Source of the DNA: Paramarasmius palmivorus
Taxonomy: Eukaryota; Basidiomycota; Agaricomycetes; Agaricales; Marasmiaceae
Reading direction: 5' to 3'
Assembly (NCBI GenBank): GCA_037176845.1
Contig: JAYKXP010000102.1
Span: 110,654-174,653, forward strand
Length of the DNA stretch: 64,000 bases
Shown: positions 56,336 to 64,000 of the stretch, piece after piece
Numbering within the stretch: the first letter of the stretch is position 1
Layout of the letters: each line of letters starts with the position of its first letter
The notes under the pieces: generated by a model
Told to the model about the DNA's origin: nothing
The model's input: only the letters and a program-made list of their open reading frames with translations
Database searches by the model: none
Translations under genes and position numbers: made by a program

Positions 56336-56779
56336 TGTCAAATCCGTGCCGGAGGTATAAAAGAGGTCCGGAGCACCACCGGAAGGTGGAGGACCTCGGA
56401 AGGTAACAGTTGCTGAAGTTCTACACAACAGCCCTACTGACCCACGGCTTGAGAGCGAATAGGAAGATAGAGGAAGTACGGAGATTGGCAGAGATAACGT
56501 TTATTATTCTGTTAGAGATACAGGAACTGTATCCTATGTCTTATATACAAGTACGGTGCCAAGTATCTCTAAACGGAACAGAACAAAGGAATATATAAAT
56601 AAGGAAACATATCAGAATATCGGAAAACGACGAGTATAGACATGAGGCATATATCCGGAAGATAATAGAACATGAGGCATAAGCTCCGGGTGAAGGTAAA
56701 CACATGTTGATGCTTCCGAGGTACTTCCGGACACGAGGTTATCTCCGGATGTCAGTGTCCGAGTGGTACGGTCATGACA
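56336..56779 (-). repeat. Gypsy 3' LTR
   Basis: 444 bp with TGTCA...TGACA ends, so both strands begin TG. On the minus strand a TATATAAG sequence (about 56539-56548) fits the sense promoter. On the plus strand TATAAAAG (56356-56363) points into the element. It carries four TCCGGA and seven CCGG sites by hand count. Confidence 0.9.
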
Positions 56780-56782
56780 GTA

Positions 56783-56794
56783 TCCCCCTCTTAG
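56783..56794 (-). other. Gypsy polypurine tract
   Basis: The minus strand reads AAGAGGGGGAT directly before the 3' LTR, the standard place for plus-strand priming. Confidence 0.8.
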
Positions 56795-56948
56795 GCTCCG
56801 ACCCCGGAGGAGCCTCCGTACCGGAAGGTACGATATCCGGAAGCAAGTATTCCCTAATCCGGAGGACAATGAAGATCTAAAGATCCATAGAAAGTTCTAG
56901 AAAATCTTAAATGAAATCACGTGATGTAACCGGGTTAACTTTTGAAAC

Positions 56949-56955
56949 TATAAAA
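56949..56955 (+). promoter_or_regulatory. TATA box of the antisense gene
   Basis: TATAAAA on the plus strand, about 58 bases upstream of the ATG at 57007. This spacing favours 57007 over the in-frame ATG at 56911, which lies upstream of the box. Confidence 0.65.
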
Positions 56956-57006
56956 GGACCACCACTTTTTGACGAAGTCCCCTCTTTCTGCCCACCAACT
57001 ACAACA

Positions 57007-58688
57007 ATGTCCGGAAGCAACGACTTGTCCTTCAACAAACCGGAAGAACGACCATCTGCCCCTGTGCCCACGGAGGAGGGCTTCACTTTTCCCCATGCCT
57101 CCCGGACGTATAGTGATCCGGAGGTCATCTCCCAAATGCCGGAGGTCTATCCTCGGCAGCAGCCTCCTTTCCCGGATCCTGTGGAGGACGACGAAGCCTT
57201 ACCTCCGAAATTCGCAATGGAAGACGTTCCGGAGGACGCGGATGAAGAAGATATCGCGGCTATCGAGGCTCGAAATGCGGAGGGCCTCCAGAATTACCAG
57301 AATCAAAGTCGTGTGGTCCGGCAGCGCAACAAGGATCGAAAAACGCGGAGGACGGATCGTCCTGCAGCCCTCCGGGCATGGCATGTCTGGATGACTGCCT
57401 ACGAAAACGCGGAGGATGCCCGGATGAGGTCTTGGTTTGAAGAGGCGAGGAGAGTGGCTGCGGAGGCTGAGGAACGCCGGAGGCAGGAGGAGGAGAAGAA
57501 GAGGGAAGAGGAAGAGCAAAAGAAGAAGGAGGAGGAGAAGAGGATTCGGACGGAGAAGGAGGCGGAGGAGAGGAAGAAAAAGGAGGAGGAGATTTGGAGC
57601 AGGGCTGCGAAACGGAGGGAGGAAGAGCAGCAGCAACGGCAAGAAGAATACCGTGCTCCTCCGACTGCAGAGGAGATTCAGCAACGGGCGGATAAGGCTC
57701 GCGCGACAGCTCAGGCAAAACGGAGGGCGGAGGCTGCATCCAAGTCCAAGGCGTCTTCTTCCCGTGCCATGGAGGATAATGCATCGGAGGCAGGTACTTC
57801 CAAAGGAAAGGGCAAGCGGAGGGCTGCAGAGGCGGAGGATGATGATGTTCAAATTGTGGACCCTCCACCGGCTCCTAAGGTATGTTTCTCCAGGAGAGTT
57901 GAACTTGTACTAATGCGATTTTATAGAAACGTCGCACCGGAGGCAAAGCTTCGGAGAAGACTGCCTTCGAGAAGGCTTTGGAGAACCGTCCGGAGGTGGT
58001 CTTCGACTCAGACGACTCCGAGATGTCGGTCGACTGGAACGACCACAAATACAAGCGAGTCGCTTCCGGTAAGGGCTGCTCCGGGTGCCGTGGTCGCAAG
58101 GAGACCTGTTATGCTCCAAACGATAAGGCTGTCAAGGATCGGGTCACCGGATGTGTAGGATGCCACTTGCAAAAATCCAAGTGTTCTTTTGGCGTCAAGG
58201 TAGCTCCCAAGTCCGCGGCAACGGTTCCGGATTCTAATCCCGGAAGCCAGGCTGGTGAAAATCCTGCGTCTCCGGAGGTGAAGAAGAAGCGGACTCGCAG
58301 GCCCAAACGACCGGATCCTGCGGAAGAAGGCACTGATCAATATGCACTTGGTGTCAGCTTTGGAAGTCTCGCAGGCCGGATCGAGAAGTTGGAGGAGCAA
58401 AACACTCGACTTCTTCGGAGCAATCAAGAGCTCCTCGACAGCAACCTCCGGCTGGAAGCACTTGTGCTTCAGCTCACGAATGGAGTAAAGGCCGCGTTGG
58501 GTCTCCGGAGGCAGGCGAATGGAGATTTCGTTCCGGAGGGAAGTGCGCAAGAGGCAAGCGGATCAGGAGGTCGACCGGAGGAGGACAAAGAACCGGAGGG
58601 AGAGAAGGACAGGGCCAAGGAGACGGAGGATATGGACATCGATAAGGACGTGGAGGGTGGAAAGGATGCTGCAGGAGCGGAGGAGTAG
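57007..58688 (+). CDS. Element-borne antisense gene: Zn2Cys6-type zinc cluster and coiled-coil protein, 544 aa
   Basis: Exons 57007-57879 and 57927-58688 flank a 47-nt intron with GTATGT donor, TACTAAT branch and TATAG acceptor, phase 0. Residues about 140-255 are a Glu/Lys/Arg-rich predicted coiled coil. After the splice a cysteine set C342-x2-C345-x6-C352-x14-C367-x2-C370-x6-C377 with CRGRK follows the binuclear zinc cluster pattern; only the central loop is longer than usual. A basic patch (KKKRTRRPKR, 410-419), a leucine-rich coiled coil (about 438-476) and an acidic tail follow. Zn2Cys6 proteins bind CGG triplets, often as dimers. The gene lies within the gypsy element opposite to gag-pol and ends 206 bases from the end of pol. 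I infer a nuclear DNA-binding regulator of the element. It could also be a captured host gene. Confidence 0.8.
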
Positions 58689-58894
58689 ATAGCGGATTTT
58701 GGGACTTCTTCGTTTTTCTTGCCTTTTTGTTGTACATAGAATCACGGACGCATACGATACGCACCGGATGTAGTGGATGGTCGAAAGAAAGGGCTTCAAT
58801 ATATAAAAGTTTCTTGCAAGTATAAGTGTGAACGGAAGTGGAATAAGAATTTCGGAAGAGATATAAGTGAACAGAATATTTCCGGAAGTCGAAA

Positions 58895-61800
58895 CTAACC
58901 GGAGGAACGAACTTTGGAAAGAGGACCAGGTTTGTCTTTGTTGCTGGGCTTCGCATGGAAGTCACCAACAGCCTCAGGAGCATTCACATCATCGGCTGCT
59001 ACCCAGTCGAATTCCTCAGCCGTTCCCTCATAACCAGCCCATCGAACGTAGTACCGTAAAGGACACCTCTTGTACCTCCGATCCAGCTTCGAATCTAAGA
59101 TTTCAGCGATTTCGAAATGTTCTTCGCCTTCATCATCGATTTCCACCGGAGGAGGGGGAGTAAGTGTGCGATTCGGAATCTCGGAAGGGTGGTGAGGTTC
59201 TAGCTGGGAAACATGGAAAACAGGATGAACACCAGAAAGATATGTAGGAAGTTTGATAGTGAAAGCATTGGAAGAGGGTTGCGAAATGATAGGAAATGGT
59301 CCAAGATACTTCTCCGCAAGCTTCTTCGTCGGACGTGTGGTCTTGATATGTTTAGCAAGGATATACACATTCTGACCAACCTTAAAGTCCGGAGCAGGGA
59401 TGCGACGATTGTCTGCAGAAGCCTTGTATGCATCTTGAGCAGCCTTGATTTCGTCCCGGAGGAACTGATGAACTTCATCAAGGTTCATGACGTAGCTGCG
59501 TGCTTTCTCGGAAGCCAGATCTACTTCCGGATGCACTGTAATGTTCGGATGATAGCCTTTGTTAGCAAAGAATGGCGATATTCCAGTAGAAGCGTTCGGA
59601 GAGTTGTTATATGCGAACTCTGCGAGCGGAAGCAATACATCCCAGTTGTCCTGTTGATAGGTGCAGTACATCCGGAGGTATTGTTCTAGAGTCTGGTTAG
59701 CGCGTTCCATTTGGCCATCAGCTTCCGGGTGGTATCCGGAAGTGAAATGCAACTTCATGTTAAGTGCCTGCCCAAGGCTACAGGAGAAGGAAGATACGAA
59801 CTCGGAACCTCTATCGGAGGTGACATGGTTCGGAACACCATGCTTGGCAAAGACGTGAATAACGAATAACCTAGCGAGTTCATCGGAGGGAATCTTTTTC
59901 GGAAGAGGAATGAAGATGGCTTGTTTGGAGGCACGATCCACAACGACCATAATGGAAGTGAACCCATTGGAATCCGGAAGTTGTTCGATAAAATCGATGG
60001 AGATGGAATCCCAAGGGCGTAGTGGAACAGGAAGGGGTTTAAGCAGGCCATAAGGTCGATGTCTACGCGACTTGTTCCTTCCGCAATCAGGACATGAGCG
60101 TACATAATCCTTGACGAACTCTCGGATCTTAGGCCAAGTATAATGCCTTCGGATCAGACTAAGAGTACGATTTTGCCCGAAATGACCGGCAAGGATGTGA
60201 TCATGATGATGCTTGAGAACTTGAAGTCGGAGATCGTCAACTGCGGGAACATAAACACGTTCATCTAACCTAAGGAGGCCAGATTCGTCAACGGACCAAC
60301 GATGATGTCCGGACTGAGCGTGATTCATGCCTGCAACTGCTTCCGGGTCGGAGGAAAGTGCTGAACGAATGTCGGAATGAAGTTTCTCAGCGTCCATAAG
60401 GATACTTGCGCGGAGCACAGGTTCCTCAAGATACGTTGCTCGGAGGGACGTGATGAGTTGTTCTTCAGTGAAAATGGGTCGAAAATTTTGTGGGTTAACT
60501 GCTGCGTAGCCGGTATCCCCCTCTTTAGGGTAGACGTCCCATCGTCTAGTTAAAGCGTCTGGTTTCGCCCCTAATTTGCCTGGTCGGAATCGGATTACCA
60601 TGTTGAATGCGGAAAGGTACTCAGACCAACGGACTTGTCGGCGAGTAAGAATCTTGGTAGTAGAGAAATATTCCAAGTTCTTGTGATCCGTAACCACATC
60701 AATAGGTGACGACGCGCCCTCTAGGTAATGACGCCAGGTCTTGAATGCTTCAAAGATAGCAAGCAATTCCTTGTCGTGCGTGTCGTAGTTAAGTTCCGAT
60801 CCGGAAAGGGTACGTGATAGGAAGGCAACAGGATGGATTTCTCCATCCTCGAGGGTAATGGAAAGGATAGCGGCAATAGCATAGTCGGATGCATCAGTTT
60901 CCACGGTAATCTGTCGATCTGGTTCCCAATGCGTAAGAACAGGAGCTCTGGTAAAAGCTTCCTTCAACGATTCAAAAGCTGTCTGAGCTTCCGATGACCA
61001 GTTCCATTTGACGTCCTTCCGGGTAAGACGAGTGAGTGGAATAGTGATATCACTGTACCCGTAAATGAAACGCCGGTAGAAGTTACAGAAGCCAAGGAAA
61101 GACTGAATGTCCTTGACCTTCCGCGGAACAGGCCAATCGATGATAGCTTTGATCTTGTCTTCCGCCATTCGGAAGCCGCTGGGGGAAAGGATATAGCCAA
61201 GGAACTCGCACTCGGAGACATGGAACTCGCACTTCTTTGGGTTGCAGAAGAGGCCATGCTTCTTGAGACGTCGGAGGACTTCCTTAACGTGATTCTCATG
61301 CTCTGCTTCATTCTCCGAATAGATAAGGATGTCATCTAGGTAGACAACGACACAGACATCCAGGAGGTCTGCGAAAATGGAGTTAACGAAGCGTTGGAAA
61401 GCAGCAGGAGCATTGGTAAGTCCTTCCAGAATGACGTTCCATTGGTAAGAACCGTAACGGGTCCTAAATGCGGTCTTCCACTCATCACCTTCTGCGATGC
61501 GAACCAGGTGATAAGCGTGACGGAGGTCGAGCTTGGTGTAGATCTTTGCCTTACTCGGAGCATCGAGAAGATCGGAGATCAAAGGAAGAGGGTAACGATC
61601 CTTCTTCGTGATCTTGTTAAGACCACGGAAGTCCACACACAGCCAGAGAGCACCACTCTTCTTCTTGACGAAGAGTACAGGGGCTCCGAACGGTGAACCG
61701 GATGCGGTGATGAATCCACTGCGTAGATTCTCGTCCAAGAAATCTCGAAGAGCCTTGAGCTCAGCTTCCGACAAGGGATAAATGCGTCCAAGAGGCGGTG

Positions 61801-62745
61801 ACGTGCCTTCTTCGAGCTCGATCTTAAGATCGTAGTCCCTATGCGGAGCTAGCTCCCAGGAAAGGTCTTCATTAAAGACTGATGCGTACTCATGATAAGC
61901 TTCCGGAACGGAACCTAGGTCTGGAGGTTCAACGTCACCGGATCTACCTGCTACCTCTTGCATGTCCGGATTATTTGCATAGAGGCAGTACTGCTTTGAT
62001 CCTGCTTCGTTACATGCACGGAGGAAAGCTCCAGCGGAAACGAGCGTGATAGGTTGAGGTTTAGCAGGGATTTCAGGTAGGGTGTAGATGGGCTCATAAG
62101 GCCAAGCCGGTTTAGGTGAAGACTTGGTCTTCCGGCGAAGAGGAGCACCGGAGGATGGCGAAACGGAGACAGGTTCCGGAACCTTAAGTGGTATATCCGG
62201 AACATCAGTGAGCGACACTGAAGATTGGGTGCTTCCTTGGTGCCGGAAAGTTAAACTACCTTCTGCCCAGTCAATCAACGGATTGTAGCGGGAGAGCCAG
62301 TTGTATCCAAGCACTAGGTTGCAGTCAGAATCGAGGCGAGTGACATAAAAGTCGAGATGAAGAGTGTCTCCGGAAGGGAATTGGATGGGAAGTGTAACCA
62401 TCTCATCAATAAAAGTTGAATTAGAGCCATCGAGAAGTTTGAGTTGCACAGGAGAGATCTTTTCGGTAGGAATATGTTTATTTCGGACATATGAGAGATC
62501 TATGAAACAATGGGAAGAACCAGAATCAACAAGAGCAAGTAAATGGAGTATGAGTTTATGGAAAGTGGAAGTGAAGCCAGGTGATACAACATCCTCGGAA
62601 AGACTGTCCGTAAGGAGTTCGGATGTAAGGGGAATGCATAAAGAATGACTGGAAAGAGCGGCAGCGTTGAGAGTGACCTCGTGTAGAACACCAGAGGGCT
62701 CAACGCGACTCCGGTCTGGTGTTGAGGTACCGGAATCGCGGACTA
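58895..62745 (-). CDS. Gypsy Pol: protease, reverse transcriptase, RNase H, integrase, chromodomain
   Basis: The frame is one base back from gag and continues open from the gag stop to 58895 (about 1283 codons). Protease active site LVDSGSSH is encoded at about 62505-62535. Reverse transcriptase has KIYTKLDLRHAYHL and the catalytic VVYLDDILIYS. RNase H has TVETDASDYA and TDHKNLEYF. Integrase has an H-x-H...CPDCGRNK zinc-binding region, SIDFIEQLP, VTSDRGSEF and the Glu in HPEADGQMERANQ. The end is a chromodomain (EEHFEIAEILDSKLD, YYVRWAGYE, EFDWVAADDV), which in chromoviruses guides insertion to modified chromatin. No stop or shift is visible, so the enzyme looks functional. Expression probably needs a -1 frameshift at the gag end. 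Confidence 0.95.
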
Positions 62746-64000
62746 TTTTTTCGACTCGGAAGAGTCGTTGTCCGTCTTAGTCTCGGAAGAGACGTTAGCC
62801 GCTTTTCCGGAAGCGGATGAAGAGGAATTGTTCTTGGGCGCCTTCCGGCAGTTCGCTACCGTGTGTCCTGCAGCTCCACAGAACATACACAGATTGTTGG
62901 CCTTCCGACGTTCTCGCTCTTCCGGCGTTAATTTGCCGTTCTTGAGCTTACCCTGTAACCAGTTAGGAAGGGTTTTGGGAGTGTTGCCGGAAGAGCCCTT
63001 AGGCTTGTTGGACGAACTAGATCCGGAGGACGACTGGTTGGTTTTCGGAGGGTTGGAAGAGGAATTAGAGTTGGAGTTGGAATTGGAGTTTCCGGAACTC
63101 GAACCTTTGTTACCTCCGGAACCAGAACCAGATTTACCTCCCTTCGAACCAGAAGAGGAGTTATTGCTCTGCTGAGCGCGTTGCTTCTCCCGCTGACGAC
63201 TCCAATAGAAATCATCGTGACGACGGGCAACAGTACGCAGCTCAGAGAAGGTTTCGGGTCTTCCGTTTCGACAGATATCGTCTTTAAGACGATCCGGAAG
63301 CCCACGATAGTACTGATAGGTGAGAGCATTCTCTCCCCAATCAAGCTCCACAGCGATGTCCTGGAACTTCAAGTCATAAGACTGAATGCGATCGCTTTCC
63401 TTCATGTTGAGACGTCCGATAGAATCTTCAGCTTCCGCACGAAGGTTCCGAGGGCCAAAGTTCTTGGTAAGCTCCCAGACGAAGGCATCGAAACTGGAAG
63501 TCCAAGCAGGACGGAAGGGTCCATGACGTCCAAGGATATCATGTTGGAACCACTTCTGGGCGTTGCCTCGGAGGTAGGATAGTGCAAAGAGGACCATGGA
63601 AGTTTCATCCGGATAGGCTTCCGGACGATCGTTGAAATGGAGAGTTATGGAGGCAAGCCATGGATGAAGGAGCTTAGGGTTACTACCGTCGAAAGTATCG
63701 GGTTCTTTGAGTTTGGATTTGGGTCTAGAGGAACTCGGAGCAGGAGGATTTTCCAACCTTGTGGAGATAGCAGAAAGTGCGGAAGCAATATTACTGAACG
63801 CACTCATAAAGACTTGAGCATCGTCGGGATCGTCCGATCGATCTCGTCTAGGAGGCGTCCTATTGCCCCGTCCACCGCCTCCACCAGAAGGGCCACCGCC
63901 ACCTCCGGGAGAGTCGGGAGGAGGACCACCTCCACCACCTCCAGGTCTACTAGGACCCACCGAGTCTGCATCTCCGTCACCATCACCTTCGCCATTCCCT
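62743..64000 (-). CDS. Gypsy Gag, 5' partial
   Basis: The frame is open to the window end, so the start codon lies outside. It has a Gly/Pro-rich N-terminal stretch, a retrotransposon Gag capsid domain (PWLASITLHFNDRPEAYP, ALSYLRGNAQKWF, YYRGLPDRLKDDI), a Ser/Asn/Gly low-complexity linker and a CCHC zinc knuckle (CMFCGAAGHTVANC). It ends at TAG 62743-62745. It forms the particle that packages element RNA. Confidence 0.92.
   Translation of the reverse strand, partial: GNGEGDGDGDADSVGPSRPGGGGGGPPPDSPGGGGGPSGGGGGRGNRTPPRRDRSDDPDDAQVFMSAFSNIASALSAISTRLENPPAPSSSRPKSKLKEPDTFDGSNPKLLHPWLASITLHFNDRPEAYPDETSMVLFALSYLRGNAQKWFQHDILGRHGPFRPAWTSSFDAFVWELTKNFGPRNLRAEAEDSIGRLNMKESDRIQSYDLKFQDIAVELDWGENALTYQYYRGLPDRLKDDICRNGRPETFSELRTVARRHDDFYWSRQREKQRAQQSNNSSSGSKGGKSGSGSGGNKGSSSGNSNSNSNSNSSSNPPKTNQSSSGSSSSNKPKGSSGNTPKTLPNWLQGKLKNGKLTPEERERRKANNLCMFCGAAGHTVANCRKAPKNNSSSSASGKAANVSSETKTDNDSSESKK
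62746..62752 (-). other. Likely -1 ribosomal frameshift site at the gag end
   Basis: The minus strand reads G-AAA-AAA immediately before the gag TAG. Slipping back one base continues in the pol frame (ATA GTC CGC...), which is open. No other shift would join the two frames. Confidence 0.5.

Follow-up and report, generated by a model that had tools for sequence, protein, structure and literature searches.

According to the accessible text of PMC5735166, the anti-silencing VANC proteins of Arabidopsis VANDAL transposons are paired with a short motif that is crowded in their own copies and rare in other transposons, related VANDAL families have differing motifs and diverged proteins, and the VANC6 motif also occurs in an unrelated element, AT9TSD1. 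Here we describe a gypsy long terminal repeat (LTR) retrotransposon, the family of which we named W, located at positions 56336-64000 of a 64,000-nucleotide stretch of DNA (hereafter the window) from the agaric Paramarasmius palmivorus (Marasmiaceae), on contig C102 of a genome of 68.3 Mb in 393 contigs. This element carries an additional antisense gene and is crowded with the palindrome TCCGGA. We propose, with a probability of roughly 0.58, that the element recognizes itself: the antisense protein would bind the motif cloud of its own element and would likely keep that element unsilenced.

W resembles the VANC/VANDAL pair in that a transposon-encoded protein is found together with a family-specific short motif that is crowded in its own copies and different in relatives. 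However, the W system is not a VANC. VANDAL is a Mutator-like DNA transposon, whereas W is a fungal gypsy LTR retrotransposon; the predicted W protein, a Zn2Cys6-like coiled coil, shows no sign of relation to VANC within the scope of the protein search described below; and unlike the tandem repeats in noncoding regions of VANDAL, the W sites are palindromes scattered on both strands, with 27 of 34 in coding sequence.

Antisense genes of gypsy elements provide a second point of comparison. Antisense open reading frames (ORFs) between pol and the 3' LTR are described in maize Grande (gene23), rice RIRE2 and Silene Retand (TRP28); DNA binding has been suggested for TRP28, and the accessible portions of both sources state the role of such genes as unknown (PMC7264820, PMC11963269). 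The W gene has the same place and orientation, but W adds a motif cloud and a predicted family-specific target, neither of which the accessible text describes for these elements, and the proteins are set apart by description rather than by sequence comparison. Among fungi, Zhao et al. reportedly found in 2011 an additional antisense gene, brtn, in the Boty-like gypsy elements of Botrytis cinerea, a likeness to W by description only. Furthermore, fungal DNA transposons, including those of Agaricomycetes, carry a TET/JBP dioxygenase thought to counter methylation (accessible text of PMC12730594). As far as that text goes, they share with W a gene proposed to act against methylation but differ in encoding an enzyme on a DNA transposon, whereas W is an LTR element with a predicted sequence-specific binder. 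Foamy virus Tas, an activator acting on both the LTR and the internal promoter of its virus, to which it binds (accessible text of PMC4929722), is comparable to the W protein, a candidate regulator, in being encoded by a retroelement. In contrast to the W sites, which are element-wide, Tas sites lie in promoters, and the virus is unrelated. We know of no element-wide palindrome cloud in foamy viruses, and Tas is to our knowledge unrelated to the W protein. A literature search that mostly left out subscription papers returned no report of an antisense zinc-cluster gene combined with a motif cloud.

The motif cloud covers both strands of 56336-64000. TCCGGA occurs 34 times (56367-63625), compared to 3.4 expected from dinucleotide composition and 12.1 from a second-order Markov model, while the remaining 56,335 bases of the window contain 8 against 14.4 expected. 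The original prediction, made from the letters of the window, had counted about 34 and about 7: the first figure proved exact, and the depletion outside the element holds although its count was one short. Of the 34 sites, 12 lie in pol, where they are spread over all three frames, and 7 in gag; the LTR contains 4, the leader 2, the two exons of the antisense gene 3 and 5, and the interval separating this gene from pol the last one. This agrees with the earlier description of four sites in the LTR and others in untranslated stretches, the antisense gene and various frames of gag-pol, except that the site at 57010-57015, said to overlap the antisense start codon, instead abuts the ATG at 57007-57009. 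Five TCCGGA fall within 500 bp spanning the leader and the start of the antisense gene.

The broader signal is the half-site CGGARG, present 99 times in the element (about 12 expected) and 61 times in the other 56.3 kb of the window. When TCCGGA was masked, 76 CGGARG were left against about 11 expected, and the two most enriched 6-mers were CCTCCG (41 vs 5.4) and CGGAAG (35 vs 5.7), which points to CGGARG. Among 500-bp bins, 12 of 16 contained TCCGGA and all 16 contained CGGARG (the last bin is short). Both strands are used by the half-sites in pol (12 and 21) and gag (8 and 10); in the antisense exons they favor the coding strand (18 and 3, 11 and 2).

To account for coding constraints, the coding parts were shuffled 50 times while preserving protein, codon use and dinucleotides. 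The observed 27 TCCGGA exceeded the shuffle mean of 12.2 and maximum of 18, and the observed 85 CGGARG exceeded the mean of 40.8 and maximum of 50. Codon use thus explains part of the TCCGGA excess, about 12 of the 27 coding sites, but not all of it; the original claim that codon use cannot explain the sites was overstated to that extent, although the enrichment persists under this null. For the W copy on contig C185, this null was applied to pol, and exon 2 of the antisense gene was shuffled separately; the W copy on C95 and the copies of a sister family (see below) on C143, C49 and C63 lie outside it. CGGARG passed in C185 pol (0 of 50 shuffles) and in exon 2 of both the window element and C185 (0 of 200).

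The palindrome also has a fixed spacing. In the window element, TCC-N0-GGA occurs 34 times, compared to 4-12 occurrences for spacers of 1-11. We carried out a blind scan of 64 three-base half-sites combined with spacers 0-11, that is 768 palindromes, in which the score reflects how far the count at a given spacer rises above those at the remaining spacers. TCC-N0-GGA ranked first in all three W copies scanned (window, C185 and C95; z 10.4, 11.3 and 12.7), whereas 13 control stretches, each 5.9-8 kb long (five from other loci and eight from elsewhere in the window), gave best z values of 3.7-6.1. None of 60 dinucleotide shuffles of the window element scored above 7.3. Among the controls, L024 gave a 6-mer z of 8.5 due to a GACGAC repeat, and L027 contains a 300-bp W-like LTR remnant.

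The antisense gene lies on the forward strand and consists of exon 1 (57007-57879), which encodes the N-terminal part and an E/K/R-rich region, a 47-bp intron (57880-57926, GTATGT...TAG) and exon 2 (57927-58688), which encodes a cysteine cluster, a coiled coil and an acidic tail. The public gene model VNI00_015569 (P0001) starts at 57007 and has the identical splice junction; a second in-frame ATG is located upstream, at 56911. Between the window and C185 copies, dN/dS was 0.14 in exon 1 (dS 0.99) and 0.13 in exon 2 (dS 0.64), indicating that the protein is kept by purifying selection; pol of this pair of copies is 98% identical. A conserved antisense coding gene is present between pol and the 3' LTR in most copies: in W it is intact on C102 and damaged or partial on C185, C95 and C321, and in a sister family, described below, it is found on C380, C143, C63, C185:60 and C49, where the contig end truncates it.

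Alignment of the antisense protein revealed six cysteines that are invariant in 11 of 11 members. They form the layout CX2CX6CX14CX2CX6C (58077-58184), followed by a 60-residue helix, in the six-cysteine arrangement of Gal4-type proteins. Zn2Cys6 clusters typically follow the spacing CX2CX6CX5-12CX2CX6-8C, so the CX14 loop is slightly beyond the usual range. The Pfam Zn_clus profile matched 7 of 11 relatives at E up to 1 (best 1.8e-4), and all seven Foldseek matches in the PDB were fungal binuclear-cluster DNA-binding domains (AlcR, Pho7, Leu3, Gal4 and Put3), a class to which Pho7 presumably belongs. A sequence search of the PDB returned nothing relevant. The model of the window protein had a mean pLDDT of 55.7, with a predicted long helix or coiled coil at residues 138-197 (58338-58517) that reaches block pLDDT values of 86-94 over residues 151-190 and is lower at its ends; the sister protein model was of low confidence (mean pLDDT 48). 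Taken from sequence and model, a Zn2Cys6-like fold is likely, and the coiled coil would be expected to make the protein a dimer. Among 5.8 billion proteins, relatives were found in P. palmivorus only (3, 4 and 8 matches), in a search that needs shared 5-residue words and that, for the results with 4 and 8 matches, scored the best 7993 candidates. This would be consistent with very fast evolution or a narrow distribution.

A search of the genome with a reverse transcriptase (RT) profile yielded 123 places, and about 3.5 kb was extracted at each of 30 loci (3 from W, 4 from a sister family S and 23 others). Family S (C185:3267, C380, C49 and C143) has a pol protein about 80% identical to that of W, while identity does not exceed about 55% at the remaining loci that gave pol matches. 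The antisense gene of S has the same place, order and orientation, and a tblastn search of a 6-kb stretch of C143 with the W protein gave E values of 1e-7 for the N-terminal part and 3e-4 for the cysteine cluster.

The sister family has a palindrome of its own. An unguided 6- to 8-mer scan of S returned CGTACGA, CGGACGA, TCGGACGA and CGGCCGA, i.e. TCGNNCGA; CGTACGA alone was found 13 times in the C380 stretch (1.4 expected) and 13 times in that of C143. Under the codon and dinucleotide null, TCGNNCGA was above all 50 shuffles in C380 pol (10 vs 2.2), in the C380 antisense gene (9 vs 2.0) and in the sister copy L058 (15 vs 3.7, representing 13 distinct sites as frames overlap). TCCGGA showed no excess over the same null in C380 pol (3 vs 2.8), the C380 antisense gene (0 vs 0.9) or L058 (4 vs 4.3), and TCGNNCGA showed none in W (3 vs 2.0). 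As in W, the spacing is fixed, with 23 TCG-N2-CGA and 0-8 at the remaining spacers. The blind scan ranked TCG-N2-CGA first in two of the three sister copies scanned (C380, z 10.5; C143, z 9.4); in L058 it came second (6.3) to CGT-N0-ACG (CGTACG, z 7.6). The maximum z of 60 dinucleotide shuffles was 5.7 for C380 and 6.4 for L058. When the scan was restricted to the 3.5-kb RT loci, carriers did not separate from the others (W 3.6-6.1, sister 4.8-6.0, others 2.8-5.7), indicating that full elements are needed. GTC-N6-GAC ranked first among spaced palindromes at three of the four sister RT loci (L030, L034 and L050; 6-7 vs 0.7).

Comparison of the aligned pol sequences revealed how the sites differ between families. 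W has 31 alignable CGGARG. At 25 of them the C380 protein has the same residues, yet C380 lacks the motif at 22 of these 25; for the 12 TCCGGA, the corresponding numbers are 6 and 4. Many sites were therefore gained or lost by synonymous change, against a background in which synonymous codons differ between W and C380 at about half of all identical residues anyway. Motif density peaks in the antisense module of W (20 CGGARG per kb) and in modules of the S1 type (7 TCGNNCGA per kb); S2 modules, the type found in L058, have about 2 TCGNNCGA per kb, the same as pol, and show no peak.

The 23 RT loci outside W and S are poor in all three motifs, with 14 TCCGGA, 50 CGGARG and 13 TCGNNCGA in 80.7 kb (0.17, 0.62 and 0.16 per kb), compared to 2.8, 8.0 and 0 per kb at W loci and 0.86, 3.1 and 2.15 per kb at S loci. 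TCCGGA density is thus not equal across gypsy families. The S loci are also raised for CGGARG and TCCGGA relative to these 23, though not beyond the S codon null. Matches to the antisense protein near the 23 loci were absent among the best-scoring candidates, a search that a very diverged gene could escape. At L059, read in 10 kb, no ATG-initiated antisense ORF of 100 amino acids was present within 2.5 kb past pol. The self-recognition put forward in the original prediction gains comparative support from the sister family, with its diverged protein and different palindrome, and from the sampled loci of other families, in which neither was found.

Furthermore, the antisense module and pol have different histories. 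The window and C185 copies are 97-99% identical in pol, mostly 73-83% identical in the antisense gene, and 86-94% identical in the gag end and LTR. In the sister family, L058 and C380 have 96.7% identical pol DNA, and their antisense modules (L058:1-909 and L061:1900-3640) gave no DNA alignment in the part held by L058. L063 on C63 has a module of the L058 type (93.6%) that aligns with the C380 module in only two pieces, at 74-75%. Unalignable modules beside nearly identical pol suggest exchange of the antisense module or its evolution independently of pol.

Within the diverged W module, the half-sites are conserved. Each of the two copies has 34 CGGARG, 23 of them in place (46 of 68 over both copies, 68%), whereas 42% of 446 composition-matched 6-mers are kept (p 5e-5). 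Within motifs, 37 of 45 fourfold third positions are kept, compared to 92 of 159 elsewhere (p 0.002). Over pol (58891-62400), CpG positions differ between the window and C185 copies at 9.0% and other positions at 1.1%, an approximately 8-fold ratio that is somewhat inflated by counting a CpG if present in either copy, and 39 of 39 CpG changes in W pol are transitions. Methylation followed by deamination converts CpG by transition, and the decay is as expected from CpG methylation and deamination of W elements. TCCGGA and CGGARG contain CpG and should therefore decay unless renewed.

Several other sources of the sites were considered and rejected. Pure chance or a codon effect is contradicted by the excess over the dinucleotide, Markov and codon nulls, by the use of all three pol frames and by the spacing specificity. 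Amplification of tandem repeats was discarded because those detected by TRF in the element are confined to 57479-57591 and 63052-63090. A motif acting mainly at the RNA level was rejected because half-sites in pol and gag occur on both strands and both family motifs are palindromic.

We infer the following mechanism. The antisense gene would give rise to the predicted zinc-cluster, coiled-coil protein, dimers of which may occupy TCCGGA palindromes and CGGARG half-sites over the whole element. Coating of this kind would likely keep the element unsilenced by countering CpG methylation or heterochromatin, or may activate transcription; by analogy with VANC, anti-silencing is the likeliest purpose of self-recognition. 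With a module that is exchanged or diverges independently of pol, and a motif that changes from one family to the next, each family would release itself alone, a pattern also proposed for VANCs and their VANDAL elements. A more specific version, which we regard as about an even bet, is a convergent VANC-like system of self versus other. In this version, an exchangeable antisense cassette would encode a fast-evolving zinc-cluster dimer, and each lineage would have introduced the private palindrome of that dimer (TCCGGA or TCGNNCGA) throughout its LTRs and untranslated regions and, within gag and pol, even at synonymous sites. Escape from silencing would then be limited to copies of the same lineage, although short elements on C9, in which no RT was detected, may parasitize the signal.

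If self-recognition is correct, a retrotransposon outside plants has evolved sequence-specific anti-silencing by convergence, the coding sequence of one element has been moulded by that element into a platform for binding, and the diverged pairs of zinc cluster and target would constitute a natural data set on specificity change. In any case, the W antisense gene brings a sequence-level prediction of its target, and two sister families have different predicted targets.

A number of results weigh against self-recognition. The Pfam Zn_clus score of the window protein is 13.8 bits, below the cut-off of 21, and the Foldseek matches are weak (E 0.33 or worse); the Zn2Cys6-like cluster of the original prediction is thus supported by the invariant cysteines and their layout but not by these scores. 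TCCGGA itself is less clearly enriched in smaller parts: C185 pol has 9 vs 4.8 expected (reached in 2 of 50 shuffles), exon 2 of the window element 5 vs 2.4 (9 of 200) and exon 2 of C185 4 vs 3.0 (69 of 200). The contrast at third positions is lost when only G/C third bases are considered (p 0.17; 0.075 in the other direction). Over the whole alignment of the window and C185 copies, TCCGGA is kept at 42 of 60 sites (70%), compared to 68-74% for control 6-mers, and columns within motifs differ at 10.9% vs 7.9% outside. The relation between the antisense proteins is weak for the C380 copy (tblastn E 0.004 and 0.012), and a tblastn search of L058 with the W protein gave no match. The comparison effectively spans two families and three module types. 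Finally, triple TCCGGA matches, overlapping ones included, number 42 genome-wide vs 5 for the reversed pattern, with none in W copies, and TCCGGA arrays on C9, C22, C23, C67, C69, C139 and C167 leave room for a host factor.

Among the alternatives, the one that survives best is that the antisense protein is an ordinary self-encoded activator or repressor, the sites outside the LTR being a by-product or serving the antisense promoter or internal regulation. We consider this possible but rather unlikely. The Zn2Cys6-like layout and coiled coil resemble fungal transcription factors, four TCCGGA lie in the LTR and five around the leader and gene start, and Tas, in the accessible text of PMC4929722, is a precedent for a retroelement activator of this kind. 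However, 19 of 34 TCCGGA lie in gag and pol, far from promoters, and a promoter activator has no need of the coding-part excess over the codon null. Less probable again is that a host DNA-binding factor reads TCCGGA, with W and its sister tuned to different host factors. TCCGGA arrays at several other loci, including an inverted duplicate on C69, would fit such a factor; but a host factor leaves three things unexplained: among the 30 RT loci sampled, only carriers of the antisense gene have clouds; motif change accompanies divergence of the gene; and W (CGGARG) and S1 (TCGNNCGA), though not S2, reach their highest density within the antisense module.

We regard as very unlikely that the protein is a tether or a packaging or integration factor, with sites that label the element's DNA, whether cDNA or copies in the genome, for integration, for recombination or for control of copy number. 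The presence of CGGARG in every bin of the element, the exchange or separate divergence of modules and a gypsy insertion within the C95 copy are compatible with this role, but no sequence evidence links the protein to integrase; palindromes of fixed spacing point to recognition of double-stranded DNA in general and do not discriminate. A functionless effect of composition or codon use (purine-rich coding repeats, high CpG) is hardly credible: although the Markov expectation is already 12 and codon use alone yields about 12 of the 27 coding sites, the codon and dinucleotide null is exceeded in W and, for another motif, in a sister with 80% identical pol, the palindromes are specific in spacing, and CpG is decaying in W copies, the opposite of a bias that would create CCGG.

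The remaining features of the window element follow Ty3/gypsy order, with Pfam matches to RVT_1, RT_RNaseH, Integrase_H2C2, rve and Ty3_capsid. The 3' LTR (56336-56781, reverse strand) has TG...CA ends at 56336-56779 and contains 6 CGGARG in addition to its four TCCGGA; its repeat of about 446 bp is common to both C95 LTRs and the C185 5' LTR. Adjoining it is a purine-rich run (56780-56790, reverse strand), which from its sequence is a putative polypurine tract. On the same strand, pol (58895-62776) has an open frame encoding a protease region, RT, RNase H and integrase, with a weak match at the integrase end to the chromodomain that characterizes the chromovirus branch (Chromo, E 0.0063, 16.9 bits, below the cut-off of 25.1). 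The gag gene (62743-63999, reverse strand) encodes the Ty3 capsid and, by eye, a CX2CX4HX4C knuckle; it is open to the contig end (C102:174653), where it is truncated, and the 5' LTR falls outside the assembly.

The W copy on C185 (C185:55230-64061) has LTRs at both ends that are 94.7% identical to each other, and is 91.8% identical to the window element over 7,604 aligned bases; its gag and antisense exon 1 are broken, the latter by one in-frame stop. The LTRs of the copy on C95 (C95:129194-143559) are 99.6% identical, and its antisense gene lacks the front and contains one TGA. A second gypsy element is inserted in pol of the C95 copy, and its RT (C95:135341) ties in profile score with six further places in the genome. 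C321 bears a W fragment with part of the antisense gene; this fragment and the LTR-only loci L026, L027 and L019 were excluded as W copies.

TCCGGA arrays outside W copies are reminiscent of the VANC6 motif in AT9TSD1, as the accessible text describes it, and by that analogy could be hitch-hiking elements; they could also be host-factor sites. Two stretches of about 2 kb on C9 (C9:108324-110320 and C9:907430-909428) have terminal direct repeats, with at least 16 TCCGGA in the first. The RT profile search found no match near them, and they are possibly non-autonomous elements using the W signal. On C69, a 604-bp inverted duplicate with 90% identity connects L001 (C69:95469-98482) and L003 (C69:157710-160723), about 62 kb apart; it contains an array of 7-8 TCCGGA near ORFs that by eye are GIY-YIG/T5orf172-like. 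A pair of arrays on C139, near 21439 and 84075, is also about 62 kb apart and, judging from site order, probably inverted. Beyond the sister element on C143, L060 contains an ORF that by eye resembles a Pif1 helicase, possibly belonging to a Helitron.

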